DNA of 64,000 nucleotides from Antarcticibacterium sp. 1MA-6-2 (GTDB taxonomy: Bacteria > Bacteroidota > Bacteroidia > Flavobacteriales > Flavobacteriaceae): NCBI RefSeq assembly GCF_021535135.1, contig NZ_CP091036.1:806001-870000 (forward strand). The letters are read 5' to 3'. Shown here one piece after another: positions 1 to 64,000 of this stretch (position 1 is its first letter; each line of letters opens with the position of its first letter). The notes beneath the pieces were generated by a model. The model was not told the DNA's origin. It did no database searches and was given only the letters and a program-made list of their open reading frames with translations. The translations under genes and the position numbers were made by a program.

Positions 1-30
1 AAATCTTTAGATTTAATAAAAGACATCATT

Positions 31-591
31 ATGATAGCATTACAACCAGCCAAAGGTCTCCTCTTAGTAGCCGAGCCTTCTATTTTTGGAGATGCTTCTT
101 TTAACCGTTCAGTAGTTTTACTGGCAGAACATTCTCAAAGTGGTTCCATAGGATTTATTTTGAATAAGGTTCTTGACTTTACCCTCAAAGAATTAATCCC
201 TGAACTAAATAAAAGTTTCAAAATTTACAACGGAGGTCCTGTAGAGCAGGATAATCTTTACTTCATACATAAAGTGCCAGATTTAATTCCTGAGAGTATA
301 GAAATAGCCAACGGTATTTACTGGGGTGGTAATTTTGATGCCGTAAAAGAATTAATACTTAAAGGGCTAATTTCTGAAAAGCAAATCCGATTCTTTCTAG
401 GGTATTCAGGCTGGGATGCTACTCAACTAAAAGAAGAACTCGATTCCAATTCCTGGATCATAACAACGCATCACGATGCTAAGGATATAATTGAAAGGCC
501 ATATAGATCCTTCTGGAAAGATAAAATGATGGAGTTGGGAGGAAATTATATGCTCTGGTCAAACGCTCCCGAAAATCCAAGTTACAACTAA
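31..591 (+). CDS. YqgE/AlgH family protein
   Basis: This 186-residue protein has the usual length of the YqgE/AlgH (DUF179) family and reads as that family from end to end. The N-terminal stretch KGLLLVAEPSIFGDASFNRS is followed by the GFILNK segment and a central GGPVE motif typical of these proteins. No signal peptide or membrane helix is visible, so it should be cytoplasmic. The molecular function of the family is not established. The gene converges on the aminotransferase on the other strand and the two stop codons overlap by a few bases. The window begins only 30 bases upstream, so its promoter is outside. Confidence 0.9.
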   Translation: MIALQPAKGLLLVAEPSIFGDASFNRSVVLLAEHSQSGSIGFILNKVLDFTLKELIPELNKSFKIYNGGPVEQDNLYFIHKVPDLIPESIEIANGIYWGGNFDAVKELILKGLISEKQIRFFLGYSGWDATQLKEELDSNSWIITTHHDAKDIIERPYRSFWKDKMMELGGNYMLWSNAPENPSYN

Positions 592-1433
592 CCTAATCTC
601 GCCTTTACATTTAGTTTAGAAAGTAAGTCTTTAGAAACCGTATTTGCAAATTCCTTCTTCCTGTATTTAGTAACAGGTTGAATTCCTACAATTATGTTGG
701 TAACAAAAATTTCATCTGCCTTTTGAAGTTCAAAAGGGGAAATAGAGGTTTCTTCTATTTCCAAATCGGGCATGGTTTTAATTATGGAAAGAAGTTGTTT
801 TCTTACAATTCCATTTAACACTCCTTCGGCCAGGGATGGAGTTTTGATCTTACTGTCGCATACCAGGAAGACGTTTCCGTTAAGAGCTTCTACTATAGAT
901 TTGCGCTCATTTAAGAGAAAACAATTGCTGTAAGCATTTTCTTTTGCAAAGATACTACCTAATACATTTACCGCCCGATTATTCGTTTTAATGGTAGATA
1001 ATAAGCCGCTGGTGATATAGTGATCTTTAAAAAGCTCAACTTCATACGGCTCCTCATTAAGGAGATAGAAAGGATCCTCCAGTTCTGAAGTATGAATTAA
1101 ATAATCAATGTCACGGGATGCCGGAGTATATAAGCCACCTTCCTTGCGTAGTACAGTAAAACGTACCCGGGCAGGTTTTGTAATTAAATTATTTTCCTTC
1201 AGGATATTTAAAATTTCTAATTCGAGAAATTCAGGAGAAAAAGTTGAAGGAATTTCCATCCTCATTATTCTCATTGATGCCATTAACCTGAAATAATGAT
1301 CTTCCCAAAAAATAATTTTTCCGTTAATCACCCTTATCGTTTCAAAAACTGAATCACCGTAAAATAGACCCCTGTTGGCAACAGGTAATTTTACATCTTC
1401 CTCTGCTACGGCTGCACCATTAAAATTGATCAT
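588..1433 (-). CDS. Class IV PLP-dependent aminotransferase (BCAT/D-amino acid/ADC-lyase type)
   Basis: A fold-type IV PLP enzyme of about 281 residues. Family features seen are the N-terminal INFNGAA and LFYGDSVFETIRV segments, the probable PLP lysine in STIKTNNRAVNVLGS, and a C-terminal FVTNIIVGIQPV segment. I start it at ATG 1433 (MINFNG) because the reading frame upstream of that codon is a terminator hairpin rather than conserved protein. Members of this family are branched-chain aminotransferase, D-amino-acid aminotransferase or aminodeoxychorismate lyase (PabC), and the sequence alone does not let me choose. It lies downstream of the START-like gene, separated by a hairpin with a T-run that abuts the start codon. 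Confidence 0.85.
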   Translation of the reverse strand: MINFNGAAVAEEDVKLPVANRGLFYGDSVFETIRVINGKIIFWEDHYFRLMASMRIMRMEIPSTFSPEFLELEILNILKENNLITKPARVRFTVLRKEGGLYTPASRDIDYLIHTSELEDPFYLLNEEPYEVELFKDHYITSGLLSTIKTNNRAVNVLGSIFAKENAYSNCFLLNERKSIVEALNGNVFLVCDSKIKTPSLAEGVLNGIVRKQLLSIIKTMPDLEIEETSISPFELQKADEIFVTNIIVGIQPVTKYRKKEFANTVSKDLLSKLNVKARLG

Positions 1434-1460
1434 AAAAAAGCCCCGTTTTGTTGACGGGGC
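1434..1460 (-). terminator. Intrinsic terminator abutting a start codon
   Basis: Read on the minus strand, GCCCCGT and ACGGGGC form a 7-bp GC-rich stem with a 7-base loop, followed directly by TTTTTT and then the ATG of the aminotransferase. It would end transcripts coming from the START-like gene. It could also act as an attenuator, because the hairpin occupies the leader where the ribosome must load. Confidence 0.7.
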
Positions 1461-1485
1461 AAAGGTACTATATAATAAAGGATTT

Positions 1486-2121: not shown

Positions 2122-2128
2122 CAAGCAG

Positions 2129-8972: not shown

Positions 8973-11344
8973 ATGAAGCAGTTCTTTACCCTTACCCTCT
9001 CCTTATTGTATTTTATGGCATTCTCATACGGGCAGACAGATCAAAGATTAGCCATTCAGGGAGTCGTGGTTGATAATGAGGGGGTCCCTTTAGAGAATGC
9101 GCAGGTGGAACTATTAAATACTTCCTTTTCCACCAGAACAAATAACTCCGGTAAGTTCGGCTTTCAACAAGTTCCTAATGGCCACTATATTATTGTAGCC
9201 AAAAAACCTGGCTTTGCAACAATCTCTAAGCACTTCCAATTGAATAGCGACACAAGCGAAGTACGGCTAATTATAGAGCCGGAAACGAATCGCCTGGAGG
9301 CTGTAACTGTAACGGCACAAAAAAGAGAAGAGATTGCTCAGGAAATCCCTCTTAGTATCACCAGCCTGTCACATGATGCCGTTAAGGAAAGCCGGATCCA
9401 GAACATAAATGATCTCACAGCAATTTCCCCAAATCTCTATGCAAGTGATCCCGGAGACAGACGCACTGTAACATCCATCAGGGGGATTGTATCGACTTCT
9501 TATGACCCCGCAATTGCAGTCTACATTGATGGAGTAAATCAATTCAACCTGGACACCTATTACGCAGCTTTTTGACGTTGAAAGAATAGAAGTACTGCGA
9601 GGGCCACAGGGAACCCTTTACGGGAGAAATGCGATGGGTGGAGTGATAAATATAATTACCCGAAAACCGGAGAGAGAGACTACGGCATTTGCCGAAGCCA
9701 CTTTTGGAAACTACGGCCGGAAGCAATTTATGGGGGGAATACGAACTCCTGTTGGGGATAGGCTTTTCTTTGGGGCTGCTGGCATGTATTAGGAAAGAGA
9801 AGGATTCTACACTAACTTATTTACCAATTCAAGCTATGATGATCAAAAAAATATTTCCAGCAATTATTACCTGCAGTACCTTTTTGATTCCACCTGGGAT
9901 GCCACTCTCAACTTTAAACACTTTTCAGCCGAAAATGAAGGTGCCTTTCCTCTGAATATGGGAGTAGATGCAGCATTTGAAAATCCTTATACACTTAACC
10001 AGAATGAAATCTCTACTATGAAAGATAATACTTTCAACACCTCTCTTGTTATCGAGCATAAAGGACAGAATATCAACTTCAGTTCTCAAACTTCCTATCA
10101 GAAGAACTACCAGTATTACGAAGACCCTATTGATGCCGATTTTTCCCCTTTAGACGGCATTTCGATTATCAATAACTACGGCAAAGACTGGAATAATGTG
10201 AAAGTAGCTACACAGGAATTCAGGTTCTCCTCTCCTTCCGGTCCCGGCAGAGATCTGGAATGGACTGCAGGAACTTATATGTTTTACCAGGAAAGTCCGG
10301 TAAAACAGGCGACTCATTTCGGGGAGGATGCACCTTTACTGGGGTCCGAAGAAATAAATTACTCCCTCATTAATACCAGTGAAGGAACAAACAAAGGAAT
10401 TGCCTTTTTTGGGCAGCTAAATTATCAGGTGCTCGAAAAAATTGGCGTAATAGCCGGACTCAGGTACGACCATGAGTATAAAAAGCAGTCTGTGTTAGGA
10501 GAGTATCAACCAGATACCGATGCTCAACCTCTATTTGAATACCAGTCAGACTCTAGTGCCACGGCCAGCTTTAAAGCATTTTCTCCCAAAGCTAAGTCTT
10601 ACTTACAATTTTTCAGAAAAGAATCTGCTCTTTTTTACTTACAGCCGTGGATTTCGGGCAGGAGGCCTTACCCCCTTGAGTGCAGATCCTTCCCAGCCAC
10701 CTTTAATTGAGTTTAAACCTGAATTCAGTAACAACTTTGAAATAGGTGCAAAGAACGCATTTTTTGAAAATAAACTGCTTCTGAATGCCACCCTCTTCTA
10801 TACCGAGGTGACGGACGTGCAGGTCCCGACGCTGGTGATGCCAGACGGAGTTATTATTACCCGTAATACCGGAAGACTTACTTCAAAAGGTTTGGAGGTT
10901 GAATTGCAAGCCTTACTGGTTCCAGGTTTAGAAGCCAAATATGATCTTGGCGTGACCAATGCCAGTTATGGATCTTTGCTGGTTGCACAAGACGGGGGTG
11001 AAGTTAATCTACAGGGTAATAAGCAGATTTACACCCCGGAAATGACTTCCATGCTGTCCCTCCAGTACAGATCACATCTAGGACTGGGTAAGGACTGGGA
11101 GTTCTTCGCTCGTGCAGAATGGAAGTATTTGGGAGAGCAGTATTTTGATCTGGCCAATTCCTTTAGACAGGGACCTTACAGCCTTTACAATGGAAATCTT
11201 GGTCTTTCCTATAATGACATACAACTAATGATATGGGGGCGGAACATATTTGACAAACAGTATATAAGTTATGGCTACAACTTCGGCGCGGTGCACTTGG
11301 GCAACCCTGCTACTATGGGAGTAACTTTATCTTTGGACATCTAG
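8973..11344 (+). pseudogene. TonB-dependent outer-membrane receptor, frame disrupted at three places
   Basis: A complete receptor of about 790 residues can be assembled. The signal peptide (ending near FSYGQ) is followed by a CarboxypepD_reg domain (IQGVVVDNEGVPLENAQVEL), a plug domain ([20 protein letters not shown]) and a beta-barrel ending LGNPATMGVTLSLDI. Breaks: near 9570 (CTTTTTGAC, a frame change before FDVERIEV); an in-frame TAG at about 9790 after AAGMY; and a frame change at 10591-10597 (GCTAAGT). The last fits a corrupted GCCGGT, the first two do not. The substrate cannot be told. The gene converges on the sugar dehydrogenase across a shared terminator. Confidence 0.85.
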
Positions 11345-22884: not shown

Positions 22885-25042
22885 TTATTTTTTACCGATC
22901 TTTCTCTTTAGTAATTGGGCATTTATGGCAACGATGACCGTACTCAAACTCATAAATACAGCTCCTACTGCTGGTCCTAAAACAAAGCCTGAAGAATATA
23001 GAACGCTAAGCAGCTAAAGGAATGGCTACCACATTATATCCTGTTGCCCATATTAGGTTTTGAATCATTTTATTGTATGTTGCCTTTCCAAATAAAATTA
23101 GGTTGGCAATATCTTGTGGATTGCTATTTACCAATATAATATCGGCTGTTTCAGCAGCCACATCTGTACCAGAACCAACAGCAATACCCACATCTGCTTT
23201 TGCAAGGGCAGGAGCGTCATTAACACCATCACCCGTCATCGCTACAAAATCGCCTTTGTTCTGTAACTCTTCTACAATTTCAACTTTTTGATGTGGCAAT
23301 ACTTCGGCGTAGTAACCATCCAATCCAAGTTTTTCACTCACAGCCTTAGCGGTTTTTTCATTATCGCCAGTTGCCATCAAGACTTTAATATTGTTTTTTT
23401 TGAATATTTTTATAGCTTCCGCAGATTCAGGTCTTATTTCATCAGCAAGAGCAATGTATCCTGCTAGCTGGCCATCTATTAATACAAATACAACAGTTTC
23501 AGCAGCGTCACTATAAGCATCTTCGGGAATGTCTATTTTTTCATCCCTTAAATAGCCCGGGCTTACAACTTTTACTTGCATACCTTCTACATTTGCCTCT
23601 ACACCTTTTCCTGTAATTGCATTAAAGTTTTCAGGTTTTGGAATAGTAATGTTATCTTCTTTAACTCTTTTAATAATACCAACTGCAATGGGGTGTTCTG
23701 AGCTTTGTTCCAATGCACTTGAAAGTCTTAAAATTTCCTCTGTTGAATAAGCTTCTTTAACAGATTCGATTCGAGTGACACCAAAATCACCTTTGGTTAG
23801 TGTTCCTGTTTTATCAAAAAGCAAAGCTGAAATTTTTCTTGACTCTTCAAAAGCAGTTCTATTTCGGATAAGCAATCCATTTTGAGCAGATACTGCCGTA
23901 GAAATCGCAACCACAAGGGGAATGGCAAGACCCAATGCGTGTGGACAAGCAATGACCATAACGGTAACCATTCTTTCTAAAGCATAGACAAATGGAAAGC
24001 CTAAAATCAGCCATACCGCTAATGTTCCAAAACCAATAGCCAAAGCGATATAGGTTAACCATTTTGCAGCCCTGTCTGAAAGATTTTGCATCTTGGATTT
24101 GGTTTTTTGCGCTTCTTCGACCATTTTGATGACCTTGTTGAGATAGCTATCTTTTCCAGTATGCTCAACCTTTACTTTTAAGGTACTGTTACCATTTACC
24201 GAACCACCAATAACCTTATCGTTTTCATCTTTTTTTACAGGTTTGGATTCGCCTGTAAGCATAGATTCGTTCAGGTAACTTGAACCGTCTACTATAATCC
24301 CATCAGCAGGAACTTTTTCACCTGGTTTAACCAAAATCACATCATCCTTTAGTAAATCTTCAAGAGGGATGTCTTCTATGATGTCGCCTTTTACCCTGTG
24401 CGCTTCCGCAGGCATCATACTTACCAGTAACTGTAAAGCTTTTGACGCACCTAACACACTTTTCATTTCTATCCAATGACCAAGCAACATTATGGCTATA
24501 AGTGTTGATAGCTCCCAGAAAAAGTCTTCGCCTCTTAAGCCAAATACGGTCGCGGTGCTATAAAAATAAGCTACAGAAATTGCCATAGAAATCAAGGTCA
24601 TCATTCCTGGCGCACCTTTTTTGATTTCAGACCAGAATCCTTTTAAAAATGGCCAACCACCATAGAAATATACGATTGTGGAAAGTGCAAAAAGGATATA
24701 TGGATTTCCGGGAAGCAAAAACTCATATCCAAAAAAGTCCTGAATCATCGGCGAGAAGAACAGTATGGGAATAGTAAGTACAAGGGTTACCCAAAACCGT
24801 TTTCTAAAATCGGCAATCATCATTTTATGATGGTCGTGGCCCATCTCGCCGTGACCGGGATCATGATCGGAATGGCCACTATGTCCCGAATGGTCACTTT
24901 CATCCATTGCTTCGTTATGGCCGTGTTTGGTTTTTTCGACTAGGTTATCTTTTATATCAGCTTCTTTTTTTAATGCTTCATTCTTTGCTGAATTATTCCC
25001 TTTGCCATTATGTTCGTGGGGATGATGTTTGTGATTTTCCAT
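22885..25042 (-). CDS. copB: CopB-type P1B-3 ATPase (one frame break near the C-terminus)
   Basis: About 720 residues. A His-rich cytosolic N-terminus (HKHHPHEH, then HSGHSGHSDHDPGHGEMGHDHH) replaces HMA domains. Helix 6 has IACPHALGLAIP, and CPH is the P1B-3 metal signature. DKTGTLTKGD, SSEHPIAVG and GDGVNDAPALAKAD are intact. The frame stops after VVAIPLAA at 23006 because of GCTTAGC. Reading GCCGGC restores AAGVLYSSGFVLGPAVGAVF and carries the gene on to a TAA at 22885-22887, touching the MFS start. Known CopB proteins export Cu or Ag from the cytoplasm. Confidence 0.92.
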
Positions 25043-26130: not shown

Positions 26131-27515
26131 TTCGATTTGTTCTATTTCTTCTATATTATATAATTGCGGGATTTCTGCATCCCACCCATAGGTTTCCTTA
26201 ATGCCTTTTTGTAATGCTTCTGCACTCTCTTTTTCACCGTGTACAATGAAAATACGTTCGGGTTGGATTTTTATTTTGCTCAACCAATCCATAAGTTCAG
26301 CGTGGTCTGCGTGTGCTGAAAGACCTTCAATTTCCGCAACTTGCATTTTAAATGGCACCCATTTTCCATAGACTTTTAGTTCTTTCTCACCTTCCAATAA
26401 TTTTCTACCTCGTGTGCCTTCAGCTTGATAGCCTACAAAAAGCAAGGTGTTATTTGGATTTTGTGCCTGTGTTTCAAGATAGTTTAGCATTCTGCCACCA
26501 GTGAGCATTCCGCTTCCTGCAATCACGATTTTTGGTTTGTTGTCTGTTCTTAACTCCATTGTTTCCCGATAACTGCTAACGACCGTAAAGTGTGAGCACA
26601 TTTCGTCACATTCGTTATCTTCCAATCTGTGCCAATCACGAGTTCTATGAAACAGTTCCAATACGTTGGCACCCATCGGACTGTCCATAATCATTTGTAC
26701 TTTTGGAATTTTGTTCTCCTTGAGTAATTTCCAAAAGATGAGCATCATCAGTTGGGCACGCTCTACCGAAAAACTGGGGATAAATAAGCTGCCACCTCTA
26801 TCAATGGTTTCGTTGACCAATTTTTCAATCTGCGGAAGTGCTTCTGCTTCATCTGGATGAAACCTTCCACCATAAGTGGATTCAATGAAAAGTACATCCG
26901 CTTTTTTTGGCTTTAAGGGTGGAAACAGTAATAAATCGTTTGTTCTACCGATATCACCTGAAAAAACGAAACGTTTTCCACGTATATCTAACTCAATGTA
27001 TGTGGCACCAAGGATGTGTCCGTTGTATTGAAACCTCGCTTTCACATCTTTGAGAATGGGTAGCCATTGCGAGGTCGGTACTCCTTTGAAGTAAGGGATT
27101 GTTTTTTCTACATCTTTTACATCGTAAAGTGGTTCAGCAGGATTATGTTTGGAATAGCCTTCTTTATTGGCACGTTCGGCTTCCTGTTCCTGTATTTTGG
27201 CACTATCGTTCAATATGATTCTTGCTATATCCAAAGTGGGGTTGGTACCATAGATGGGTCCATTAAAGCCTTGCTTTACCAATCTCGGCAGATAACCTGT
27301 GTGGTCCATATGGCCGTGGGTGAGCAAAACAGCATCAATATCAGCAACATTAACAGGTGGGTACTCCCAGTTTTTAAGGCGTAATTCCTTTAGCCCTTGA
27401 AAAAGTCCGCAGTCTATGAGTATCTTTTTATCTCCTGTATCCACTAAATATTTTGAGCTTGAGTTACTGTGCCTGCCGCTCCTAAAAAATGGATGTTTAT
27501 TTTATTTTTTTTCAT
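26107..27515 (-). CDS. MBL-fold/beta-CASP RNA exonuclease-type hydrolase (one frame break)
   Basis: About 468 residues. The metallo-beta-lactamase motif LLTHGHMDHTGYLPRL, the motif FSGDIGR and the beta-CASP part with GSGMLTGGRMLNYL and LSAHADHAELM are all present, as in bacterial and archaeal CPSF-like nucleases. The N-terminus is cut off by a frame change at 27457-27464: the true start is ATG 27515 (MKKNKINIHFLGAAGTVT), and reading ACCGGC there restores GTVTGSKYLVDTGDKK, the family consensus. A ligand set for two zinc ions is complete. It heads the distal part of the stress island and its stop is followed by a gene remnant. Confidence 0.88.
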
Positions 27516-28707: not shown

Positions 28708-29541
28708 TTTTTAATATGTATGGTCATCACAGGAAGTTCTGAATGATTAGTTACACCTTCGGCAATACTTTTTGAAAATAGGCTCAAAAATCCTGTACGG
28801 CCGTGGGTACACATAGCTATCAAATCGGCATCATTATACTTTAAGTAATTGTTTATACCCGTTTCTACAGCAGGTTCGTTATATACATTCATTGAGTACT
28901 TCTCCAAATCCGGAAACCTTTCCAGGAACTTCTTAAGGGGGTTCAAACCCTGTTCAATACTATTAAAATCAGTCTGTGTATTGACCCTTACTAAGTGGAT
29001 ATGTGCACCGCATTTTTTAGCAATAGAAATAACCTGCTTAAAGGCTTCACTCACATCTTCCAGAAAATCTGAAACAAAAACGATATCTTTAAAAGGAAAG
29101 GATACTTCTTTGTTCTTCACCACAATTACGGGCACATCTGCTTTTCTCACAATTTTCTCAACGTTGCTTCCCAATAATTCCCTTACACCGCCTTGCGTAC
29201 CGCTACTTCCCGTAACTATAAAATCGTGATGAAAATGCCCGGAATGTTTTAAAATATTGGCCTGGCCTCCATCAAATTCCAGAAAAGTCCTGCATTTAAG
29301 TCCTTCGCGTTCCGCTTTTAACCCCAGTTCCCTCAAATCGGCTCTTGCGCTACCTATTTGTTGAACCGTTTGCGGATATCTTTTTTCTTTCTCCTTATCC
29401 AGGTTTATCCAATCTACTGGTTGTGTTCATTAAATGGAAAAAATGTATTTCTGAATTGTACAGTTTTGCCATTTTAATTCCAAGTTCTGCTGCCTTGTTA
29501 CAGTTTTCAGAAAAGTCTGTTGGTACGAGTATATTTTTCAT
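28704..29541 (-). CDS. Universal stress protein, two UspA domains (one frame break)
   Basis: About 279 residues as restored. It starts at ATG 29541 with MKNILVPTDFSENCNKAAEL, a UspA first strand. The frame is interrupted at 29416-29422 after FFHLMNT; reading ACCGGT restores NTPVDWINLDKEKEKRYP. A first ATP-loop-like GSSGTQGGVRELLGSNVEK is followed by the second domain (KDIVFVSDFLEDVSEAFKQ) ending with CTHGRTGFLSLFSKSIAEGV. Tandem Usp proteins act as cytosolic nucleotide-binding stress factors. It is transcribed with the ATP-cone/nuclease gene. Confidence 0.88.
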
Positions 29542-35289: not shown

Positions 35290-35299
35290 ATTGTAATAT

Positions 35300-35650
35300 T
35301 TATTTGGGGTCTTCCCTGTTGTATTTGTCCTTTAGCCTGACAATATCGTTTTCATCAAAATTTCCAAAAGCAATTTCAAGTACACTTACAGAAGAATCAG
35401 ATGTTTTTATTTGATGTACGGTTTCCTTCGGGATAAAAAATTCGTCCCCTTTATGGCCAACTTTGGTATTGTCGCCAATTACGAAAGTTCCCGTTCCATC
35501 TATTACTCTCCAGAATTCTTCCCTGTTATGGTGAAACTGTAGACTTAGCTCTTCGTTTGGATTAACCGTAAGTATTTTTACGGTGCTAATCTCGTTATGG
35601 GTAAAGCGTTCAAAGTTTCCCCAAGGTCTTTCCTCTATGTATGTTTTCAT
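35300..35650 (-). CDS. Cupin resembling the mannose-6-phosphate isomerase type II C-terminal domain
   Basis: 116 residues making one cupin barrel: RPWGNFERFTHNEISTVKIL, then SLQFHHNREEFWRVIDGTG and GDEFFIPKETVHQIKTSD. The HHxxxxE and later His are the metal ligands of the cupin. The family is the C-terminal domain of bifunctional ManC/PMI proteins, here stand-alone, so mannose-6-phosphate/fructose-6-phosphate isomerase activity is plausible. That would link mannose from GH130 to the PFK encoded immediately upstream. Confidence 0.8.
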   Translation of the reverse strand: MKTYIEERPWGNFERFTHNEISTVKILTVNPNEELSLQFHHNREEFWRVIDGTGTFVIGDNTKVGHKGDEFFIPKETVHQIKTSDSSVSVLEIAFGNFDENDIVRLKDKYNREDPK

Positions 35651-35661
35651 TTTTCTCGTTT

Positions 35662-40294: not shown

Positions 40295-40997
40295 TTATGC
40301 TTTTTGAGTTTTTAAATAATCCACGGTTTCCTTTACGGTTCGAGGATAAGTAGCATTTCCCGTTAGTACATAAAAAGTTGTATTTTCTTCATCGCTAACA
40401 TAAACCTAGTTCGTTCGAAGGTAGAATATTTGTTATCCTGATAACCTCACGCTAGTGGCCATCTTTATTCTTATGTTTAAGGGATTTATAATCCTTTTCG
40501 AGCCCCAGTATATTTCCCTCATCATCAACACCAATAATTAATTTACCACCCTTAGCATTCATAAAACCTGTGATGGTTTTGGCAATGACCAGTTCCAGTT
40601 CCTTATTGGTTGTTTTGCGGTAATAGTCATAATTTATGAAAGACTTAAATTCTACCCGTTCATTTTCGTCCGACTCAATTAATTCTTCAATATCACGAAC
40701 AAGCAGCCGTTGTTGTGTTCCAATGAGTTCATTTTTCCTTTTAAGGTTTATCCATAACAAACCAGAAACTATTCCCAATAAAGTTAAAAGGCCACCCATT
40801 CCCCGCATATCGAAAGTGAAGGACTCTAAAAAACGTTGTTTTAAAACATCCTGGAACAAGGAAATTGAAAAGGCTGTGTCGCTAAATTCAAACCAATAAA
40901 GCACCATTGTAAAGGGGTGTACCAGGAAATAAAAAATGCCTGCACCCAATAGTAAATGAATAAAAATGATCTTAATTTTCGTCAAATCCTTTCTCAA
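40295..40997 (-). CDS. Membrane-anchored Schlafen AlbA_2 domain protein (two damaged sites, internal deletion)
   Basis: The N-terminal part has two hydrophobic helices (about 10-32 and 65-82). It is followed by an AlbA_2 domain: ENERVEFKSFINYDYYRKTT, KTITGFMNAKGGKLIIGVDD and LEKDYKSLKHKNKDG. The frame stops at 40452 (CACTAGC), then continues EVIRITNILPSNE, is shifted at 40404-40410 (CTAG) and resumes VYVSDEENTTFYVLTGNATY and a C-terminal helix to TAA at 40295. Both sites read correctly as ACCGGC and ACCGGT. Compared with the family, about 35 residues between KNKDG and EVIRI are missing. The domain is thought to bind nucleic acid or act in stress; the role here is unknown. Confidence 0.65.
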
Positions 40998-42059: not shown

Positions 42060-42684
42060 CTATCCCTTATTATTGTTCCTGATTGCTATTAGATTGTCAG
42101 AAATAAATTTGGAAGTAATAGCTGGGGTATCTTTAACATAGAAGTCCTGGATGGATCTCAATTCCTGGGGATCCCAGCCCCCCGTTGGTTCTCCTGTTTT
42201 TGGGTTTCGACCCTCAAGAGTGTACCAATACACCTGTCCCAAAGCTGTCGCATCAGGACCCAAAGCAGGTTGTACATCTGCAGGTAAGGTACTACGCGGG
42301 AAGAGAATTAAGCTTCTCCAAAATCCGGGACTAGCTCCAGTAGAATTCCACATCCTCCTCAAAAATTACATATATACTGGAAAGGCCGAAAAGCGAACTG
42401 CTTCGAATAGTCTTTACTCCCGGCACTCCCAGAAGGGAAGTAGTGAGGGGATAGGTTATCTGGTCCTCGATATCCTGCGGGGATTTCCCCATCCACTCGG
42501 TATAAACTATTTGTTGGTTTTCACCAATATCGGGTATAGCATCTACGGGAACGGGATCTCTTGGCATCCAGTCAATTTCCCAATTAAATGGTGCTGTAGC
42601 CACCCCCCAGGCTATAAACGCAACCGTAAGTAAAGCGGTCACTAACTTATTCTCTAAAAAGAATTTAATTGTTCTGTTAAGCAT
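42060..42684 (-). pseudogene. Truncated CusA N-terminus
   Basis: The first about 170 residues of a CusA-type RND pump ([50 protein letters not shown]). An in-frame TAG stands at 42331-42333 (read on minus as AGC TAG TCC) where the family has Arg; AGCCGGTCC would restore it. The frame then continues [15 protein letters not shown] through [18 protein letters not shown] to DFYVKD, after which it departs from the family into about 20 unrelated residues and stops. The gene is therefore truly truncated by a deletion, besides the TAG. It mirrors the start of the complete cusA at 59.2 kb. Confidence 0.85.
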
Positions 42685-43515: not shown

Positions 43516-44768
43516 TTAAAAACTTATTACAGCTTCAAGCACCAGTCCATTGAATTTTCCTCCATCAAACCTTGTACCCGGTAAAAATCCGTTATATTCC
43601 TGATTCACATACTCCACTTTAGCAAGTATATTTTTGGTCATGAACCAACCTCCTGACAACTGGTATCTTGCGATATCAATATCATTCCCGGCCTCCTCAC
43701 CGTCCACAGTATTGTATCTTCCGGCCACGTAATAGTTTTCATCAGCCCCAAATCTATAAATAAGATCTCCGGCAAGTTGTGTAATGGTCCTTTCCTGTGC
43801 TTCGGTTGTACGTTTACCTGAAGCCCTTTCAAAAGTTCCGAAAAATTCCAGTCCTCCCATTTTAATAAAAGGGTTGATCATAAAGGCAGTCATCTCGTTC
43901 CCAAATCGTGGATTGTACCTACCGGAAGTGAATCCATGAACATCTGGTAACTCCATTACTTCATAATATCTCGACCCTGCACGATCACCCCCATACAAGG
44001 ATACATTAGCATTTTTATTGGTATGGTAAACCGAGCTTAGGTTAATCTGAATCTAATGTTATTACTCAGTAATCCATCGTAACCTGCTTTCGCCAGAAAG
44101 GAAGGACCTGTTGCATCTGGATTTGTAACGCTTTGATTTAATTTGCCATTAGTTGCACCTACCATTCCAATAAATCCGTTGTTCCTATAGTAAACTTCTG
44201 CACCAACTTCTGTTGTAAATGAATCCATAATGTAATTCCCCACAAAAGGATTATATATAGCCTGGGCATTATCTGTTCGCCGGAAGTGAGCATCACCATA
44301 GTTGTTTTCCATATGTCCAATTTTGACGGTTACATTATTCATTAAACCTTCCATGAACCCGGTGCTTATAAAATCCAATTTATCGATCAAAATGTATCCA
44401 CTTTTTACGTAAGGTTCATTATGGTGACGTGAAGACAAATAGGTTCTAAGATGCATACGCACCCCGTCGTATAACTGAACATCAAGGTCCAGATTGGCTG
44501 TTGGCAAGTTGAAATTGCTTCCTATTGTTGACAGAGGAACAGTACCTGAATTTTCATGTTCCAGGGCCTGAAATTGAATTGTTGATGCACCACCAATCCT
44601 TACTTCGACCCCATCAAAAGTACTGATTGTATCTTTGGGTGCTTCAAAGGTATTTATGCCTCTTTTATCTGGTGCTCTAAAGTTGTCCAAATCCCGTTGC
44701 TGTGCCTGCAACTGGGATGCTAAGAGCACAAAGGCAATTGTGCTCAAATATAAAATTGAAGTTTTCAT
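43516..44768 (-). CDS. Outer-membrane porin of the phosphate-selective (OprO/OprP-like) type, one frame break
   Basis: About 417 residues. The signal peptide (MKTSILYLSTIAFVLLASQL) is followed by strands such as IGGASTIQFQALEHENSGT, NNVTVKIGHMENNYGDAHFR and a C-terminal IDIARYQLSGGWF and FNGLVLEAVISF, the pattern of large beta-barrels ending in Phe. The frame breaks at 44035-44042 after RFRLT; reading ACCGGC gives LTGSVYHTNKNANVSLYGGD, as expected. Transported solute unknown. Between an HYC_CC_PP gene pair and in the copper module, so metal or anion relevance is possible but unproven. Confidence 0.8.
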
Positions 44769-45576: not shown

Positions 45577-46148
45577 TCATAACAAGTTCAGGTCTTCTTC
45601 TCTTTTAAGCTTTTGAAGCCTATAATCAGAAGGACTTAAACCTAGGTTACTTTTCTAAACTGGGTGGAGAGGTAAGTCGCACTGCTGTATCCTGTTTCCC
45701 TGGCAATCTCTGAGATGTTCAACTCATTATATTCAAGTAACTCCTTTATACGTTCAATTTTGACCTGGTTCTGAAATTCCTGTATTGTCTTACCTTCTAT
45801 TGTTGTAAAGAGCCTGGTGAGATGACTGTAGTCGTAATAGAGATATTCACTTAAAACCTTTGATAATTTTCCGCTGCCATAGTTTTCCTCTTTATAAATA
45901 CGTGCTATAATAATTGATTTTATCTTGTTCACAAGCCGCTCATTTTTATCGAAAAGTATCTCAAAACCTACCCTCAAGAATTCTTTCTGAATGGCAGACA
46001 TTTCTGCAGCAGTCAAGGGCTTTACCAGTACCGCTTGCCCCAATGAAACTTCCTGATAGGGAATTTTTAATCCTTCCAATATTTCCCTGACGCTGCTTTT
46101 GCACCGCTGACAAACCACGTTTTTTATATAAAGTACTTTTTCTTCCAT
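45577..46148 (-). CDS. AraC-type regulator with N-terminal Cys-x-x-Cys (HMA-like) sensor region, one frame break
   Basis: About 190 residues. I start at MEEKVLYIKNVVCQRCKSS (ATG 46148): residues 1-70 look like a ferredoxin-like/HMA unit with the metal-type C-x-x-C. The C-terminal 100 residues are two helix-turn-helix motifs of an AraC domain (LSEYLYYDYSHLTRLFTTIE, ISEIARETGYSSATYLSTQF). The frame stops early after FRKVT at 45640-45647 (ACCTAGGT); reading ACCGGT restores RKVTGLSPSDYRLQKLKREE. Probably a copper-responsive activator of the surrounding genes; metal sensing is inferred from the motif. Confidence 0.8.
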
Positions 46149-46844: not shown

Positions 46845-47619
46845 TTAATTGTTATTTATTGATACATCAATATTTTCAGTATTGATCTTTGAGAAAAATT
46901 TTAGGGCTCCTTCCTCATAAAGGGAGTCCAGCTCATTTAACGGGGTGGAAAGCTCATCGGTTTCATAGTTTTGGTAGTCTACAAACCGGATACCTTCTAT
47001 GACCCTTGGATTCACCGCTTTCCTAAATCTTATCCCGCCATTGTTGGTGAAAAACTGATACGCCAGATAATCAACAGTGAAATTTTCTTTGTGGATCCAA
47101 TACACAAATTTATCATGGTGATCTGTCCCGCCGCCTTCTTTTCGAAAACTCACTTCAATTTCATAGTAGGGTTCGCCTTCAACTTCATCCTCTCCTGACA
47201 GTTTTTTAATCGCGGCCGGGGAATTGAGTACATAAGGTACCTGCACAAAGTAGTGAACAGAATTTATCCCATCACTTATCCTGGTAACCATCGAATCTGG
47301 AACAGTGACAGCTTTATTGTTTACAAAACGCTTCAGACCCTCATTGCTGAGAACATCATGTGTGGTTTTACTTAGTGGTGGAATCCTTTACAACGCGTTC
47401 CAACCGGAACATGTCCCCATTGCGTTTGCTCTTATATCTCCTGTTCCTAAAAGTAAATCCAATCTCCGCATTTTCATAATTTTTTCCTCCCGAGACCTCT
47501 ATACTTTTTTCTATAATTTTCTCAGCTTCTGATTTCTTTTCGGAAGTTCCACAAGACAGCGATAACACTGAAACCAGTATAGCAGTTAGGACTATGTTTT
47601 TGTGACAAAAGTTTTTCAT
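46845..47619 (-). CDS. DUF6503 family lipoprotein-like protein (one frame break)
   Basis: About 257 residues from ATG 47619 (MKNFCHKNIVLTAILVSVLS) with a lipobox-like LSLSC. The family pattern EKIIEKSIEVSGGKNYENAE then FTFRNRRYKSKRNGDMFRLE is followed by a break at 47370-47376. Reading ACCGGT gives STTGKTTHDVLSNEGLKRFV, which joins to SMVTRISDGINSVHYFVQVP and the rest. Outer-leaflet or periplasmic, LolA/lipoprotein-carrier-like fold possible; function unknown. Confidence 0.7.
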
Positions 47620-48898: not shown

Positions 48899-49518
48899 CT
48901 AAATTTCTTTCTGGACCTCTCCACAGGTAAGCATTTTTTGTCCAAAATAAGGGTTTTTTATTTCTTCACTGGCACTCAACCATATTGCACCTTTGTTGGA
49001 GTTGTACATAGGACAAAACTGTTGGTAAAGGGTTTTGGGGCTTCCGGTGATTTCCAACATATCTACAAGATCAACGCTAAGGATATCAAAGTGTTCCCGT
49101 TGATGAGCTATATCGCTCATGGTAATATGTTCAGCATGTTCTTTGGCATCCTCTATTATTTCCGTCAACTCTTTTTGCTGCCCTCCCTCATATTCACTCA
49201 TGTCAAACTCTTCAAAAGCTGCTACAAGGCTTTCACTAAGCATTTGCTGCATCTTGTGTATTATCGGCTACAAGCGCATCTTTTAATTTTAAATAGTCAT
49301 TAACGATCCGCCCGGTTTGCGAATTCTTGTTTTCACTAGTCATATCTTGGGAAGCTTGTGATCCACCTTCCATCATATCTGAGCTAAGCGTTCATATTTT
49401 CATGATCCATTGTTGAATGGTCCATCTTTCCTTCTTCAGTGTTGTTCTTACAGGATACTGCTGCCAGGCTTGCAATTACTAACATTGCAATTCCTAAGTT
49501 TACTTTTAAATTCTTCAT
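48899..49518 (-). CDS. DUF3347-type lipoprotein (two frame breaks)
   Basis: About 205 residues as restored. ATG 49518 begins MKNLKVNLGIAMLVIASLAA with the lipobox Cys in AVSC, then a Met/His-rich DHSTMDHENM stretch, and a helical DUF3347 body ending NSNKGAIWLSASEEIKNP and FGQKMLTCGEVQ. The frame breaks at 49383-49389 and 49235-49241 (both CTAAG on the plus strand); reading GCCGGC and GCCGGT joins the parts into one frame (NAG-SDMMEGGSQ and NAG-ESLVAAFEEFD). Copper-associated outer-membrane or periplasmic lipoprotein of unknown activity. Confidence 0.8.
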
Positions 49519-49584: not shown

Positions 49585-51973
49585 CTAGAACCTTATGCTA
49601 AGTCCACCCCCCGCACCAAAACGGTTGTCATAGCTTCCCATGATGGAAAAGTTTTTTGCCAGGAAATATTCAGCCCCCACAGTGAGGACTTCTTCTTTTT
49701 CAAAGTTCACTCCTTCAGAAAGATCATTGACCCATCCAAAATCGGCCTGGAATTCATATTCTCCAAAGACTACGATCCTGCGAAAGACCAGAATTTCCCT
49801 GCTCAGGCTTACTTGTGGCCTTAGTTTATTGTCAAGGCGCACATCTAAATTAAACATGTACGGAGTAAAATATCGTATTCCTGCAACGGCAGTTGTTGCA
49901 ATTTCATCCATACTTCCGGTACTTTCGTTTTCCATATTTATCCCTCCAAATACCCGAAACCAGTCGTTTAAATAACGTTCATAAGTAAGTTCTGCCTCCA
50001 TGTTTTGGTTCCAGCCATATTCTGCACGGGCAGTAAATTGGTTACGAATGTTCGATGAAACAACATTGAATTCTGTCATATGCGAAGCGACATCTACTAT
50101 CCCCCAGGTAAAAAAATGATTGCTTGCATTGGTAAGGATCTTGAGGGGATGATCTTTCAGGCGTTCATCCCTTGGGGTATCGTAACTAAAAATACGTGCC
50201 ATGCCGGAATCCAAATGGTACAGAATATGACAATGAAAGAACCAGTCGCCATATTCATTAGCATCAAATTCTATTACCACTTTTTGCATAGGTGCCACAT
50301 TCACGGTGTGTTTCAAAGGCGAGTATTCCCCGTGCTCGTTTATGACCCTAAAAAAATGCCCATGTAAATGCATGGGATGGTGCATCATGGTAAGGTTGTT
50401 AAGGGTTATACGAGTAACCTCCCCCTGTTTTATTTTTATTTTATCACCTTCAGACAAAGGGACACCGTTTAAGCTCCATATATAACGTTGCATATTACTA
50501 GGTTAAATTCAGGAGGATCTCTTTAACGGGTTTATCTTCAGAAAAATCTGTTATTTCAGGGGCTTTTAAATAATTATAATTAAACTCCGAAAACATGCCG
50601 CCTTGCATGTCCATTTCCTCCTTTTCACCCATATCGTGACCCATTTTTTCTTTAGCATCTTTATCCCTCTTCATGTTTTCCATTTCCTCCTCGTCCATAT
50701 TATCGTGGTCCATTATCACCGTGTCGTTGGACTTTTTCATTTCATCCATCTTATTCATCCCGTGATTCATTCCTTCGTGATCCATCTCCATTTCACCGTG
50801 GTCCATACTTTCCATTCCGTCCATCTGCATCCCGTATTTCTCTGCCGTTTCGTAAGGTGTTTCTTTACCAGGGTTAAATTTCATTGCAGGGGCTCCCATT
50901 TTCATGTCCATGTCTGCCATTTGTTTCATCATGCCAATTAAATCAGGTTTGGACACCTCTGGTGCCCTTATAACTAGCCCCTGGCCAAGGAATGCCGAGG
51001 ATTGGCCAGTACCGTCTTGCGCAGTAGCCCGAACTTCCAATTTTCCGCTCTCGGGAATGGTAACAATAAAGTCATAGGTTTCAGCTACGGCAATAAAAGT
51101 CTTGTTACGCTCTACAGGTACTACGTCCAGTCCATCTGCAGCTACCAATAACGGGGTTTCACCTCCAAATGTCAGCCAAAACTGGGTTGAGGCCGCTGCA
51201 TTTATAAATCTTAACCTTACCCTTTCTCCCGGTTCAAACTCAGGATACTCCTGGCTCGTCGCTCCGTTTATAATGAAAGCAGGATAATACACATCTGAAA
51301 TATCCATCCCTTCCATTCGCTGTTTCCAAAAGTTCAGCTGGGCTCCCAAAGCACCCCGTGCTATCACCCTATTAAGAGGTGTAACTGTATTTTTCTTGAT
51401 CCCATACCACTCATTGCCTCTTTTTAGATTTCTTAAAACATTTTTTGGTTTTTCAAATGTCCAGTCTGCCAGGACAAGGACGAGCTCTGAGTCATAATTA
51501 AGATCCTCTTCAGGATCTTCAATAACAATAGAACCGTATACTCCACTTTGTTCCTGTAATCCTGTATGGGAATGGTACCAGTAGGTTCCTGCTTGCTTTA
51601 AAGCAAATTCATAAGTAAAAGTTTCTCCCGGTTTTATAGGAGGAGTTGTGAGATAGGGCACGCCATCAAAAAAATTGGGAAGTAATAGGCCGTGCCAATG
51701 CACCGAGGTTTCTACATCCATTTCATTTTTTACGTGGATTACAGCATATTCTCCTTCTGTAAACCTTAAGGTAGGGCCGGGAATACTTCCGTTAATGGTC
51801 ATTCCCATTTTCTTTTTTCCGCCAATATTTACTTCCTCCTGATCTATGGTGATGTTATATTCCCTTACTGGTAGGTTATCCACGTTTCCTTCAACAGATT
51901 GCTGCTGTTGCTGCTGGGGATACATTCCCCACGTAATTAATATAAGTCCTATTAAAGTACCGAGTTTTTTCAT
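49585..51973 (-). CDS. Multicopper oxidase (CopA type) fused to a CopB-like outer-membrane barrel domain (one frame break)
   Basis: About 795 residues when read through. The first 490 residues are the oxidase: signal peptide, VHWHGLLLPN and GTYWYHSHTG copper sites, and a Met-rich insert full of MDHGEM and NHGMNKMDEM-like repeats, as in PcoA/CopA. The frame stops at 50498 after LNLT; reading ACCGGT gives LTGNMQRYIWSLNG and joins the third cupredoxin domain with HHPMHLHGHFFRV and WFFHCHILYHLDSGM. The last 170 residues form alternating strands ending RFGAGGGLSIRF, the pattern of a CopB/PcoB barrel. Oxidises Cu(I) in the periplasm. Confidence 0.88.
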
Positions 51974-55452: not shown

Positions 55453-58400
55453 TTAAACCGGATTCTTTTTCACCACAGTTTCACGCCAATAAGCCTGTAA
55501 CATAAGTACCACAAATATTGTCATGACCTGTATGACCATACCACCGACTATGGGAATGGCCATTGGAACCATAATATCAGAACCTTTACCTGTAGAGGTC
55601 AAGACCGGAAAAAAAGCAATAACCGTAACGGCTGTGGTCATCATTGCCGGGCGGACCCTCTTTAGACTAAGCCTCCAAAACTGCCGCACGAACTTCAGGA
55701 ACCGTCTTAGGATCCTTTTCCTCAAAGATCTGGTGAATGTAAGTTCCCATAAGTACCCCGTCATCGGTGGCAATTCCAAATAAAGCTATAAAACCTACCC
55801 AGACGGCCACACTGAGATTTACCGTCCCCATTTGGAAGAGGTCTCGCATATTTACCCCTGCTACGGCAAAATCCATAAACCAGGGCTGCCCGTACAGCCA
55901 GATCATGATAAAACCTCCTGAAAGGGCTACAAAAACTCCCGAGAAATGAATAGAAGAAGCTATGACAGTTTTAAATTGGAAGTACAGCAACATAAAAATG
56001 ATGATCAGTGCTATTGGGATTACAATGGAAAGGCGTTTCATAGCCCGTACCTGATTCTCATAGTTCCCTGAGAACTTGTAGCTCACCCCTGAAGGTACTA
56101 CCAGCTCTCCACTGTCTATTTTCTTCTCGATCATCTCCTGTGCATCATTTACCACATCAACTTCGGCATAATCGTCTCTTTTATCGAAAAGAACATAACC
56201 AGTCAGGAAAGTATCTTCACTCTTGATCATTTGAGGACCCCTCACGTAATTCAGGTCCGCCAGATTGCCTAAAGGAATTTGTGCTCCACTACTGGTAGGA
56301 ATCAGAATGTTTTTAATGCTGGCGGGATCATCGCGGAGCTCCCTGGGGTAGCGCACCCTCACCGGAAACCGTTGCCTGCCTTCGACGGTAGAAGTGATCT
56401 GCATTCCGCCTACAGCGGTTTCTATTGTCTGTTGCACATCTTCAATGCTTAAACCATAACGTGCAATGGCATCACGATCTATATCAATTTCCAAATAAGG
56501 TTTTCCCACGATCCTGTCGGCAAACACAGCTTCAGCCTTAACTGAAGGAACAGTTTTAAGGATCGTTTCCAGTTCCATTCCAAATTCCTGAATGGTTTGC
56601 AAATCGGGTCCATAAACCTTTATTCCCATAGGAGCCCGCATTCCAGTTTGCAACATCACCAGTCGCGTCTCAATAGGCTGTAATTTGGGTGCAGATGTGA
56701 CTCCGGGCAGTTGAGTGGCATTTACTATTTCAGTCCAAATGTCATCTGGACTCTCTATATGCTCCCTCCAGTTCCTGAAGTAAGTTCCGTCTTCATCCAA
56801 AACCAGATCTTCTGCAGTATATCCCTGCTCTAGAACCTCTTCATTGGTCAGAGTATCTCCTGATTTTAAAATAAACCTGTTCTCCTCGTCTACCTTAAAA
56901 CTCAGCCGCTCTCCCTCCTGAGAAAGAGCATATTCGGGCCTGTAATTAATGATATTCTCATACATAGAAATAGGGGCCGGATCAATGGCTGTTTCTGCCC
57001 TTCCAAGTTTTCCTACCACCATTTCAATTTCGGGAATAGCTGCCACGGCCATATCCAATTGCTGCAGGGTTTCCTTGCTCTCCTCAAATCCCGCATGTGG
57101 CATTGAAGTGGGCATCAGCAGAAAGCTACCTTCATTGAGCGAAGGCATAAACTCCTTGCCAACTCCTGGAAAACTGTGAGTCAGGCCAGACCAGACAGAA
57201 GTGGTCCTGATATTCGCGCCAACTTTGTCAAAACCATTGGCGACAAAGCCAAAAATACTGCCAAACCCGAACCAGATCACGATTCCTAATAAAACTGTCA
57301 CAATTGGAAGTATGAAAAATTTTCCCTTATTGGCAAGACACCATTTAAGTATCGGTTCATAGAATTTCACCATGGACATTAAGGAGGCCAACACAATACC
57401 TAAAAGTACAATAACAAAAATGTAACTTGAGAACAGAGAATTTTTATATCCCAAGGGCAACCATTCCTCAGCAAGAAGGAATAAAGTAACAGCCAGAATA
57501 ATGAATAACATTATCTCATTTGAGTACCTCCCTAAAAATTGTGGGTTTTTATCCTCAACCAGTTTCAGAATACCAATTACAGTAAGGGCAAGAGCGAGCC
57601 AGAAATTAAAGTAGATAGACAGGAACAATCCAGCAACGATCAGGGTACCATTCCATATCTTCGCTATTTTGCCTCTCTCTGTTCTTAAGGAGAACATAAA
57701 ATAGGTAAGAGTTGGCAGCACCACGAATCCGAGAACAAATGATGCCGTCAAAGCGAAGGTCTTCGTAAAGGCAAGAGGCCTGAAAAGTTTTCCTTCAGCG
57801 TTTTCCATAAAAAATATAGGAAGGAAACTTACTATGGTTGTGGCCAGAGCAGTAAAAACAGCGGGGCCCACTTCTGTAGTAGCATTCTGAATTACCAGCA
57901 GAAGTTTTTTCCCTTTGGCACCTTTGTTTTCATCCATTTCCAGATGCCGAATGGTATTTTCGACAAAGACGATTCCAACATCGATCATCACCCCAATGGA
58001 AATCGCTATTCCTGAAAGTGCCACTACGTTGGCATCTACTCCAAAATACCGCATTACAATAAAGGTCATCAGCACCGCAATGGGAAGTAAACTCGAAATT
58101 AAAATTGATGCTCTTAAATTAAGTACCAGCACCACAATCACAATGATACTAATTAATATCTCGTGGGAAAGTGCCGTCTCCAAAGTTTGGAGAGTTTCAT
58201 TTATAAGCCCAGTACGATCATAAAAAGGGACTACGGTCAATTGGCTAATGGTACCATCTGCCAGTGTTTTTTTCGGCATTCCGGGGGCGATCTCCTCAAT
58301 TTTGTCTTTGACGTTTTCAATGACTTCTTTGGGGTTGGAACCGTACCTGGCCAATACTACGCCCCCGACTACCTCGGCACCACCTTTGTCCAGCATTCCA

Positions 58401-61710: not shown

Positions 61711-63058
61711 TCATACCATATATACAACATCTGAACTTGATGAAGGATAGGTTAGGATCATAGTTTTTAGATCTTTGGAAGTAAATCCCGCTTTTATAGC
61801 CAGGGCAAATAGATTTATTACTTCCTCGGCATGTGGGCCAATAAGATGTGCTCCCAAAATTTTTCCGGTTTCTTTCTCAACGAGTGTTTTATAGGCATAG
61901 GTTTTCTCGTTGATCCTTTTTGCGGTAAACCAGTCGGGAACACGATCCTTGTTCACCTTAAAGTCCAGACCTTTTTTAGTGGCTTCTTTTTCAGAAAGTC
62001 CTACCGAAGCCATTGTGGGCAGCGTAAAAACAACGGTGGGAATTGCGGTGTAATCTGGTTTCTTAGTGTTGCCTTTTAAAATATTGGATGCTACAATATG
62101 TGCTTCCATAACGGCAACTAAGTGTAAGGGGAATACCATCTGTATCTGCTGCATCCCCGGCAGCATAGACATTTGGATTGGTGGTGCTTTGCAAATATTC
62201 ATTCACTTCAACTCCTTTTTTACCAAAGGCGATATTTGCTTTCTTGAGGTCCAAATCAAAAATGGCAGGAGGCCTTCCGGCAGAATTGATCACCTGCGCA
62301 GCCTCCCATATTTTTTCCCCACTTTCACCTTTTCCGGTTACGCGAAAAGCCCCATTCGCCTCTTCAATCGCCGTAACATTGGTGTTCAGAATTAATTGTA
62401 TGTCTAACTTTTTGGTAGCTTCAGTTAATTGATCTACTATAAAAGGATCAAAATTCTCCAGTGGCCTTTTCCCCCTGTGAATTATTGTCACTTTACTGCC
62501 AAAACGGGCAGCCATATGTGCAAACTCAAAAGCGATGTACCCACCGCCAATAAACAGCAAAGAGGATGGCAGGGTTTTGAAATTAAGAAAATCTGTACTA
62601 CTAATAGTATACTCCTCACCCGGGAGATCCAGCTTTCTCGGTTTTGCACCCGTAGCTATTATGATCTTCCCGGCTTCTATAGTTTCTTTTCCTACCTGCA
62701 ATTGAGTTTCAGAAATAAATTTTGCTGATTCATGAAAGGTATCAATTTCGTTTTTTTCGTAAGCTTTTTCAATTTTAGACGGCATAGCATCCACAAAATC
62801 CTGTTTGAATTTCATTGCTTCCTGCCAGAAAATAGCTGGTACTTCAGAAATTTGCTTCTCGTATAAATTATCAGCCAAGTGTTTTGCTTCAGTAGGGCCG
62901 AGTATGATCTTTTTTGGGTCACATCCACGAAGGGCACAGGTACCACCATAGGGTAATTCATCTGTTATTCCTACCCTCAGACCTCTAGAAGCACATTTAT
63001 TGGCAATAGTCATTCCTGCCATTCCGGAACCTATTACAAATACATCATACTTTTTCAT
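61711..63058 (-). CDS. Mercuric-reductase-like flavoprotein disulfide oxidoreductase (one frame break)
   Basis: About 449 residues from ATG 63058 (MKKYDVFVIGSGMAGMTIAN). The redox disulfide is in GGTCALRGCDPKK. The NAD(P) site is LLFIGGGYIAFEFAHMAARF and the FAD strand NVYAAGDAADTDGIPLT. The frame breaks at 62117-62123 after PLT; reading ACCGGT gives LTPVAVMEAHIVASNILKGN. The C-terminal part is the dimer interface. Unlike true MerA there is no N-terminal HMA and no C-terminal Cys pair, so mercury reduction is not assured. It lies with MerTP and GDCCVxC genes. Confidence 0.82.
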
Positions 63059-63171
63059 GTGTTTATATTTTGGCACAAACCTAGGGAATTCAGCACAGGT
63101 TTTTAATCATTCCTCTGAATGTTGACTTTTTTGCGCCCAGCATCATGCTGGTTTCATCTCACTTTTTTAGG

Positions 63172-63780
63172 TCACTTATCTACTACCTTATAATAAGTAC
63201 TGCTTATGGCAGTAATAATTGCAGCCCTATTTACTTTTGTTTTGTCATATTCAACTACCGTATTGGCATTTTCATAACTGGCATTGACCGAAATAATGCC
63301 ATTGAGTTTACTTACCTTACCTTCCACAGGTGCTTCACATCCTGCGCAGGTCATTCCTTCTACAACAAATACCTCCTTAACAATATTTGATTGTGAGACA
63401 TAGACTATTTCTTTTTTGGGTTGGCTGTAAAATACCTCGGAGTAATTTGGAAAAGCCAGCATGAGGCCTGCAAATAATGTTACACCTAATAAAAACTTCT
63501 TTGTCTGCAAAAAAGATTGTTTTTCATCTTCTGCACATCCGCAGTCGCTTTCAGCTTCTTTTCGGGACCTCAACTTTCGATACCAGGCCAGGCCCAGGAT
63601 TAAAACCGTGAGAGCAATTAAATAAGGCCGGAAAGGTTCCATCCACGAGAAGGTAGTTGCCATGCCACTTGTACCTGCTACGAGGGCAAGAACTGGTGCA
63701 ATACAGCATAAAGAAGCCGCTATAGCTGCTACTACTCCGCCAAAAGCAGCTTTATTGTATTTATTTTGGGATGTATCCAT
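63172..63780 (-). CDS. MerTP-type fused mercuric transport protein
   Basis: 202 residues. The N-terminal half is MerT: SLCCIAPVLALVAGTSGMAT with the vicinal Cys pair in the first helix, and three helices overall. A MerP-like HMA domain with VEGMTCAGCEAPVEGKVSKL follows at the C-terminus. Together they bring Hg(II) across the inner membrane. The start codon is one base from the ArsR-type stop. Name merTP is avoided because specificity is not proven. Confidence 0.85.
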   Translation of the reverse strand: MDTSQNKYNKAAFGGVVAAIAASLCCIAPVLALVAGTSGMATTFSWMEPFRPYLIALTVLILGLAWYRKLRSRKEAESDCGCAEDEKQSFLQTKKFLLGVTLFAGLMLAFPNYSEVFYSQPKKEIVYVSQSNIVKEVFVVEGMTCAGCEAPVEGKVSKLNGIISVNASYENANTVVEYDKTKVNRAAIITAISSTYYKVVDK

Positions 63781-63781
63781 T

Positions 63782-64000
63782 TTAAGCGGATTTTTTTAAT
63801 GATTTAATTGAAGTGAAGATGTTATTCAAAATCTGAGTTTCAGATTTTACCAGCGAATAATACAAAGTTTGTCCCTCCCTTCTGGAAGCAATAAAGCCCG
63901 CATCCTTCATTTTCCGGATATGTTGTGAAATCGCTAAGCATACTCATTTTCAAAATGTCTGCTATATCACAGGGGCATAATTCATTCTCCATATTTAAAA
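63782..64000 (-). CDS. ArsR-family metalloregulator, C-terminal part (one frame break, cut by window edge)
   Basis: The readable part begins ENELCPCDIADILKMSM and, after a frame break at 63933-63939, continues AISQHIRKMKDAGFIASRRE, GQTLYYSLVKSETQILNNIF and ends SLKKSA. Reading GCCGGC at the break gives MSMPAISQHIRKMKD, the standard ArsR recognition helix. The N-terminus lies beyond the window. The metal-type ELCPC motif in the first DNA-binding helix is that of ArsR/SmtB proteins. It ends one base before MerTP, so it is the likely autoregulator of this operon. Confidence 0.8.

Follow-up and report, generated by a model that had tools for sequence, protein, structure and literature searches.

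The stretch analysed here, 64,000 nucleotides of Antarcticibacterium sp. 1MA-6-2 (the window; positions 806001-870000 of a genome assembled as a single contig of 4,383,004 bases), raises the question of why many of its genes appear to be broken at short words such as CTAG, CTTAG and CTAAG while the palindrome RCCGGY is missing from it. An earlier note made from the window alone had proposed that RCCGGY carries a modified cytosine that was systematically miscalled, and that an RCCGGY methyltransferase lies outside the window. This proposal was supported by a genome-wide shortage of the site, by the position of frame breaks outside the window, by an imprint of the site in the proteins of relatives, and by the presence in the genome of one C5 methyltransferase of the RCCGGY kind. 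We consider it highly probable (about 0.92) that RCCGGY sites methylated by the C5 cytosine methyltransferase of this genome's restriction-modification (R-M) system were systematically miscalled in nanopore-type reads. In this course of events, a type II R-M pair would be present in the genome, and its C5 methyltransferase would mark RCCGGY. The assembly or its final consensus would derive from long reads of native DNA, most likely nanopore reads, and from a basecaller model untrained on the mark. The altered signal would then lead to nearly every RCCGGY being read as other words, R-CTAG-Y, R-CTTAG-Y, R-CTAAG-Y, and R-CTTAAG-Y among them. Because such substitutes often bring a TAG, a change of length, or both, genes would look broken although they are probably intact in vivo.

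RCCGGY was indeed absent from positions 1..64000. Among 132 CCGG sites with both flanking bases known, 37 were YCCGGR, 95 had mixed flanks, and none was RCCGGY; the earlier description of these flanks (A or G after RCCGG, Y only after YCCGG) was exact. Approximately 37 RCCGGY sites would be expected in the window when scaled from G002, one of two congeneric genomes (G014 and G002) against whose ratios of RCCGGY to other CCGG survivors and losses were judged (189 to 675 in G002). The frequency of the site was not normal elsewhere in the genome either. RCCGGY accounted for 8 of 1002 CCGG sites in 20 stretches of 20 kb, and for 14 of 2083 in a sequence sample of 840 kb that included the window and covered approximately 19% of the 4.38-Mb genome. 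In contrast, the share was 176 of 838 in G014 and 189 of 864 in G002. By these ratios about 550-580 sites would be expected in the 840 kb, of which 97-98% were gone. Whole-genome figures were pattern counts of ACCGGT, GCCGGC, and TCCGGA only, with ACCGGC and GCCGGT counted in the 840 kb; they gave 42 ACCGGT and 1 GCCGGC compared to 1408 TCCGGA, and ACCGGT numbered 282-1166 in 15 genomes of the same genus, some of them incomplete. A Markov test of the 840 kb returned the four RCCGGY words as the most depleted hexamers, with 20 ACCGGT observed on both strands compared to 138 expected, 0 GCCGGC compared to 83, and 4 each of ACCGGC and GCCGGT compared to 107 each. Two relatives at the level of the order, G035 and G034, were considered as carriers of a similar hole (13 and 25 ACCGGT) and were rejected, as their TCCGGA counts of 14 and 33 point to composition. 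The hole is peculiar to this assembly among the genomes compared.

Ten of the 14 surviving RCCGGY sites in the 840 kb (e.g., L007:2240 and L068:8730 among the 14) were ACCGGT, and two survivors sit in like GACAAAACCGGYACC stretches, which we take to be, perhaps, the P-type ATPase DKTGT motif. The survivors may lie in contexts that could be read correctly or may be unmethylated.

Frame breaks were located by tblastn of open reading frames (ORFs) of at least 120 amino acids, drawn from G014 (800 kb) and G002 (400 kb), against the 840 kb. Only alignments of more than 20 residues and at least 45% identity were used, breaks that overlapped were reduced to the narrowest one, and chance levels came from 1000 placements made at random within the aligned coding DNA. 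Break density, determined from 142 kb of aligned coding DNA, was 0.352 per aligned kb, compared to 0.023 in G014 and 0.042 in G002 by the same procedure (8- to 15-fold higher than in the congeners). When the test was rerun with the earlier note's own words, CTAG, CTTAG, or CTAAG lay within 15 nucleotides of 22 of the 41 breaks outside the window (random mean 2.5, maximum 8). The same three words with R..Y flanks were found at 14 of these breaks (random 0.7, maximum 5), and with Y..R flanks at 2 (random 0.6). A wider word, [AG]C1-2T1-2A1-2G1-2[CT], was set after the break listing had been inspected and hence was not blind; it occurred at 26 of the 41 outside breaks (random 1.33, maximum 6), at 31 of 50 when the window was included, and with Y..R flanks at 2 of 41 (random 0.72). 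None of the breaks of the congeners carried the wider word (0 of 4 in G014 and 0 of 4 in G002). Some breaks without it showed near forms. The substitutes were often altered in length (CTTAG, CTAAG, and CTTAAG). CTAG, which the earlier note derived from CCGG, is only one of several substitutes, and forms with extra bases are frequent at breaks.

The words themselves were also counted. The strict form, R-C1-2T1-2A1-2G1-2-Y, occurred 682 times in the 840 kb compared to 1101 times with mixed flanks, a ratio of 1.24 to half of the mixed count; the congeners had ratios of 0.78 and 0.91. The window holds 46 strict words, so not every such word is a miscall, and a Markov test of single substitute words in the 840 kb found no striking over-representation. 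In DNA aligned with G014, RCCGGY was kept at 0 of 12 sites and a length change was present at 4 of 12, compared to 9 and 1, respectively, of 39 other CCGG sites; that only 9 of the 39 were kept is due to the divergence of the genomes.

The proteins of relatives bear the imprint of the lost site. RCCGGY codes for [TA]G in frame and for P[AV] in the second frame, and these two of the three frames were tested. At 15 of 32 strict sites, the relative's protein had [TA]G or P[AV] no more than 5 residues away (random mean 1.8, maximum 7 of 1000); the count is 32 rather than the 31 of the break test because breaks were merged differently. Of the 29 ORFs of relatives that had a strict break, 20 were scanned for protein families; for 5 of these, no family passed the cut-offs. 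The genes broken at substitute words include recJ, thymidine kinase, purine nucleoside phosphorylase, an LpxH-like gene, accC (its best copy), and phosphoglycerate kinase, for which a single locus was found in the genome; the names LpxH-like and phosphoglycerate kinase rest on scores under the NCBIfam cut-offs.

Errors of this kind are already known; their completeness here is unusual. In the window and the 840-kb comparisons, they fit C>T/G>A changes plus indels at one motif. Nanopore R10 errors at 5-methylcytosine (5mC, or m5C) in Neisseria are described mainly as C>T/G>A, with indels also among those at methylated sites, in the available text of that report (PMC12506013). Likewise, the accessible parts of two other reports describe nanopore errors at Dcm CCWGG sites with models lacking that mark (PMC6591954) and errors caused by strain-specific modifications on which the caller was untrained, as at GCAGC/GCTGG in Listeria (PMC10687267). 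As is probable for the present genome, the errors in all three cases are tied to one methylated word genome-wide. Unlike in those cases, 97-98% of the expected sites were lost here and the loss was recognised from the assembly alone; unlike the mismatches described for Listeria, length changes were frequent. The earlier note had placed the mark on the inner C, and the substitute words do alter inner positions of the site. Since methylation errors may fall several bases from the mark, according to the available text of another report (PMC12392509), these words do not fix which cytosine is marked.

A genome-wide search with PF00145 (E<=0.001) gave one match, a 394-amino acid gene on the minus strand at G000:C1:3944960-3946141 and thus outside the window, where the earlier note had placed the enzyme. 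The match (5.9e-48) covered residues 14-374. In alignment with homologues the protein has PPC and FENV stretches, a target region, and a C-terminal GNGVP stretch; we take the PPC, FENV, and GNGVP stretches to be C5 methyltransferase motifs. A plasmid search returned 518 records matching the methyltransferase, of which the four best were opened, the fourth being without annotation. In all three annotated plasmids, from Nostoc (54% identity), Moraxella (53%), and Geobacillus CPW16 (pBsrF30, 37%), a gene annotated as Cfr10I or as Cfr10I/Bse634I family adjoins the homologue. The DNA of strain CPW16, which from the shared name we take to be the strain carrying pBsrF30, has m5C in RCCGGY, with detection at 3,050 of 8,133 sites, which the authors assigned to BsrFI in the available text (PMC8112702). 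Because its relatives adjoin annotated Cfr10I-family endonucleases and CPW16 DNA carries m5C at RCCGGY, RCCGGY is, as judged from sequence, the likely target of the C5 methyltransferase found here. The parts available of the same report and of another also list M.AvaIX of Anabaena variabilis, with specificity RCCGGY (PMC8112702), and VchM, an RCCGGY m5C methyltransferase (PMC4654547). The enzyme of this genome resembles all three in being of the C5 type; its likeness to M.AvaIX and VchM is by description and not by sequence. The outer C is the base marked by VchM and some of its relatives. A gene for a Vsr-type mismatch endonuclease (L001:2996-3415) and an integrase-family gene lie upstream of the methyltransferase gene. 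The Vsr gene, whose position fits a putative role in the repair of deaminated m5C, had no match in the nine homologous loci compared.

The methyltransferase gene, a member of the RCCGGY clade, overlaps the start of a downstream partner gene of 359 amino acids, also on the minus strand (L001:381-1460, equal to G000:C1:3943903-3944979). The partner is described as restriction-endonuclease-like and is kept beside RCCGGY-type methyltransferases in Bacteroidota and Bacillota; the same pair was present in all four named loci fetched. A search of 296 genomes for the partner gave 22 with a match, including its own. Three others (G103, G156, and G212) had a near full-length match, each with an adjoining methyltransferase; identities were 63-66% for the methyltransferase and 76-80% for the partner. 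The nearest known CCGG endonucleases for comparison are Cfr10I, Bse634I, NgoMIV, and BsaWI. Compared by blastp to the Cfr10I/Bse634I family, the partner had no detectable similarity (best E 7.2) and is unrelated to it in sequence; the predicted endonuclease here belongs to another sequence family than in BsrFI-type systems. No match to the partner was found in NCBIfam, among the sequences of solved structures, or among phage records, and Pfam gave only one match at chance level (0.16). A fold search with a weak model gave a nuclease-like but not decisive result, with room for families beyond the list compared. It is possible, though we hold it only tentatively and doubt it more than we believe it, that an R-M lineage of Bacteroidota and Bacillota joins an RCCGGY methyltransferase to an endonuclease unrelated in sequence, as an independent solution to cutting RCCGGY; in the same tentative reading, the assembly would also be a readout of the methylome, in which each RCCGGY left would denote an absent mark or a readable context.

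Several points weigh against systematic miscalling at sites methylated by this enzyme. The platform, the methylation itself, and this methyltransferase as its maker are all inferred. Fifteen of the 41 outside breaks lacked the wider word and 19 lacked the three original words; these may be other errors or looser substitutes, and some may be gene boundaries. The excess of strict words covers only part of the lost RCCGGY. The direct G014 alignment yields few sites (12 RCCGGY over 400 kb of diverged G014 DNA), and was rejected as a stand-alone proof for that reason. Two of the broken genes are each insufficient to prove an artefact, because accC has two intact paralogues (48% and 44% identity) and the frame change at GCTTAGT in phosphoglycerate kinase splits off, and leaves out of frame, only about the first 27 residues. 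Two of the other bearers of the pair, G103 and G156, are single contigs without the hole; another platform, caller, or polishing is therefore needed for them. In the literature, the modification errors described in the available part of PMC10687267 are mismatches with no indels, and most methylated motifs in that of PMC12392509 gave no error, which makes a near-total loss of RCCGGY unusual.

Other explanations fare less well. True avoidance of RCCGGY through self-restriction, with the breaks being real pseudogenes or unrelated errors, would suit a genome-wide hole whose centre is the word that the restriction system of this genome probably recognises. However, ACCGGT numbered 968, 492, and 1028 and GCCGGC 352, 161, and 489 in G103, G156, and G212. 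These are ordinary counts in genomes with the same pair, and selective avoidance was rejected as very unlikely on that account; neither would it put breaks at substitute words in 22 or, by the wider form, 26 of 41 cases. Still less credible, to the point of being negligible, is real mutation, in which methylated C was deaminated and fixed as T, for example after failure of Vsr repair. It is true that TA often stands in place of the inner CG of the site and that the genome has a Vsr gene, but the substitutes are often of another length, and the single-change products are not clearly in excess: the ratio of R..Y to half of the mixed flanks was 0.77 for CTGG (0.84 and 0.86 in the congeners) and 0.89 for CCAG (0.79 and 0.87), so that only R-CCAG-Y was marginally over the congeners and plain deamination was rejected. 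A cell would also presumably be unable to live with so many broken genes. An alternative closer to our reading keeps the miscalling and changes its source to another modification (N4-methylcytosine, phosphorothioate, or a bulky base) or to an enzyme other than the C5 methyltransferase found. The errors do include insertions, and N4/N6 methyltransferase and sulphur-modification genes were outside the scope of the search; yet the sole C5 methyltransferase found has fitting relatives, and 5mC is documented to yield both C>T/G>A errors and indels in the text available (PMC12506013). We regard this source as improbable, if slightly less so than avoidance.

If RCCGGY was miscalled at 5mC, this species-representative genome seems to hold roughly 2,800-3,000 corrupted sites, as extrapolated from the 14 left compared to about 550-580 expected in the 840 kb. 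The break density would correspond to at least several hundred false frame breaks and to many probable false pseudogenes, and estimates of gene content, pseudogenes, and completeness are misled by such errors. A missing palindrome together with breaks at substitute words is a usable screen for uncorrected modification errors in deposited long-read assemblies, and the same screen can point to the target of a methyltransferase from the assembly alone. The value of the present case lies in the completeness and readability of the signature, in the correction for this genome, and in an apparently separate endonuclease lineage.

Within the window, the earlier note had listed 19 breaks at CTAG-like words. 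Fifteen of them fit the strict form exactly, whereas the sites at 12409, 27457, 29416, and 58781 differ in wording. The sites were checked against G014 and G002 proteins, counting a break within 25 nucleotides or an in-frame stop within 15; one or the other was present at 10 of the 19, and the site at 23005 was additionally in the break listing.

Table 1. Candidate miscalled sites in the window; gene names in parentheses and sites marked as candidates are taken from the earlier note.
Word	Position	Strand	Observation
GCTAAGT	10591..10597		Candidate
GCCTAGT	15297..15303	gene on -	Break of heavy-metal P-type ATPase gene (CopA)
GCTAAGC	23005..23011		Frame break in second P-type ATPase gene
GCTTGAGT	27457..27464		RCCGGY in aligned G014 DNA, which is two bases shorter
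ACTGGT	29416..29421		Frame break (universal stress protein)
ACCTAGT	40404..40410		In-frame stop compared to G002 protein, 38% identity
GCTAGT	40451..40456		In-frame stop compared to G002 protein, 62% identity
ACTAGC	42330..42335		In-frame stop compared to G014 proteins
GCTTAGGT	44035..44042	ORF on -	Candidate; ORF end at 44037
ACCTAGGT	45640..45647	ORF on -	Candidate; ORF end at 45642
ACTTAGT	47370..47376		Candidate
ACTAAGC	49235..49241		Frame break
GCTAAGC	49383..49389		Candidate
ACTAGGT	50497..50503		Frame break in multicopper oxidase gene
ACTAAGC	55666..55672		Frame break and stop in RND transporter gene of the AcrB/CusA type
ACTAAGT	62117..62123		Frame break in pyridine nucleotide-disulphide oxidoreductase gene
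GCTAAGC	63933..63939		Frame break compared to G014 ORF, 50% identity (ArsR start)

Two further features of the window were observed. A gene of the DNA polymerase III alpha type (995 amino acids, by Pfam domains) occupies positions 2330-5317 as one open frame. A 7-kb piece at 29562-36628 is 92% identical to G014, compared to about 66-87% for the other aligned pieces, and by its sequence looks as it might after recent horizontal transfer.

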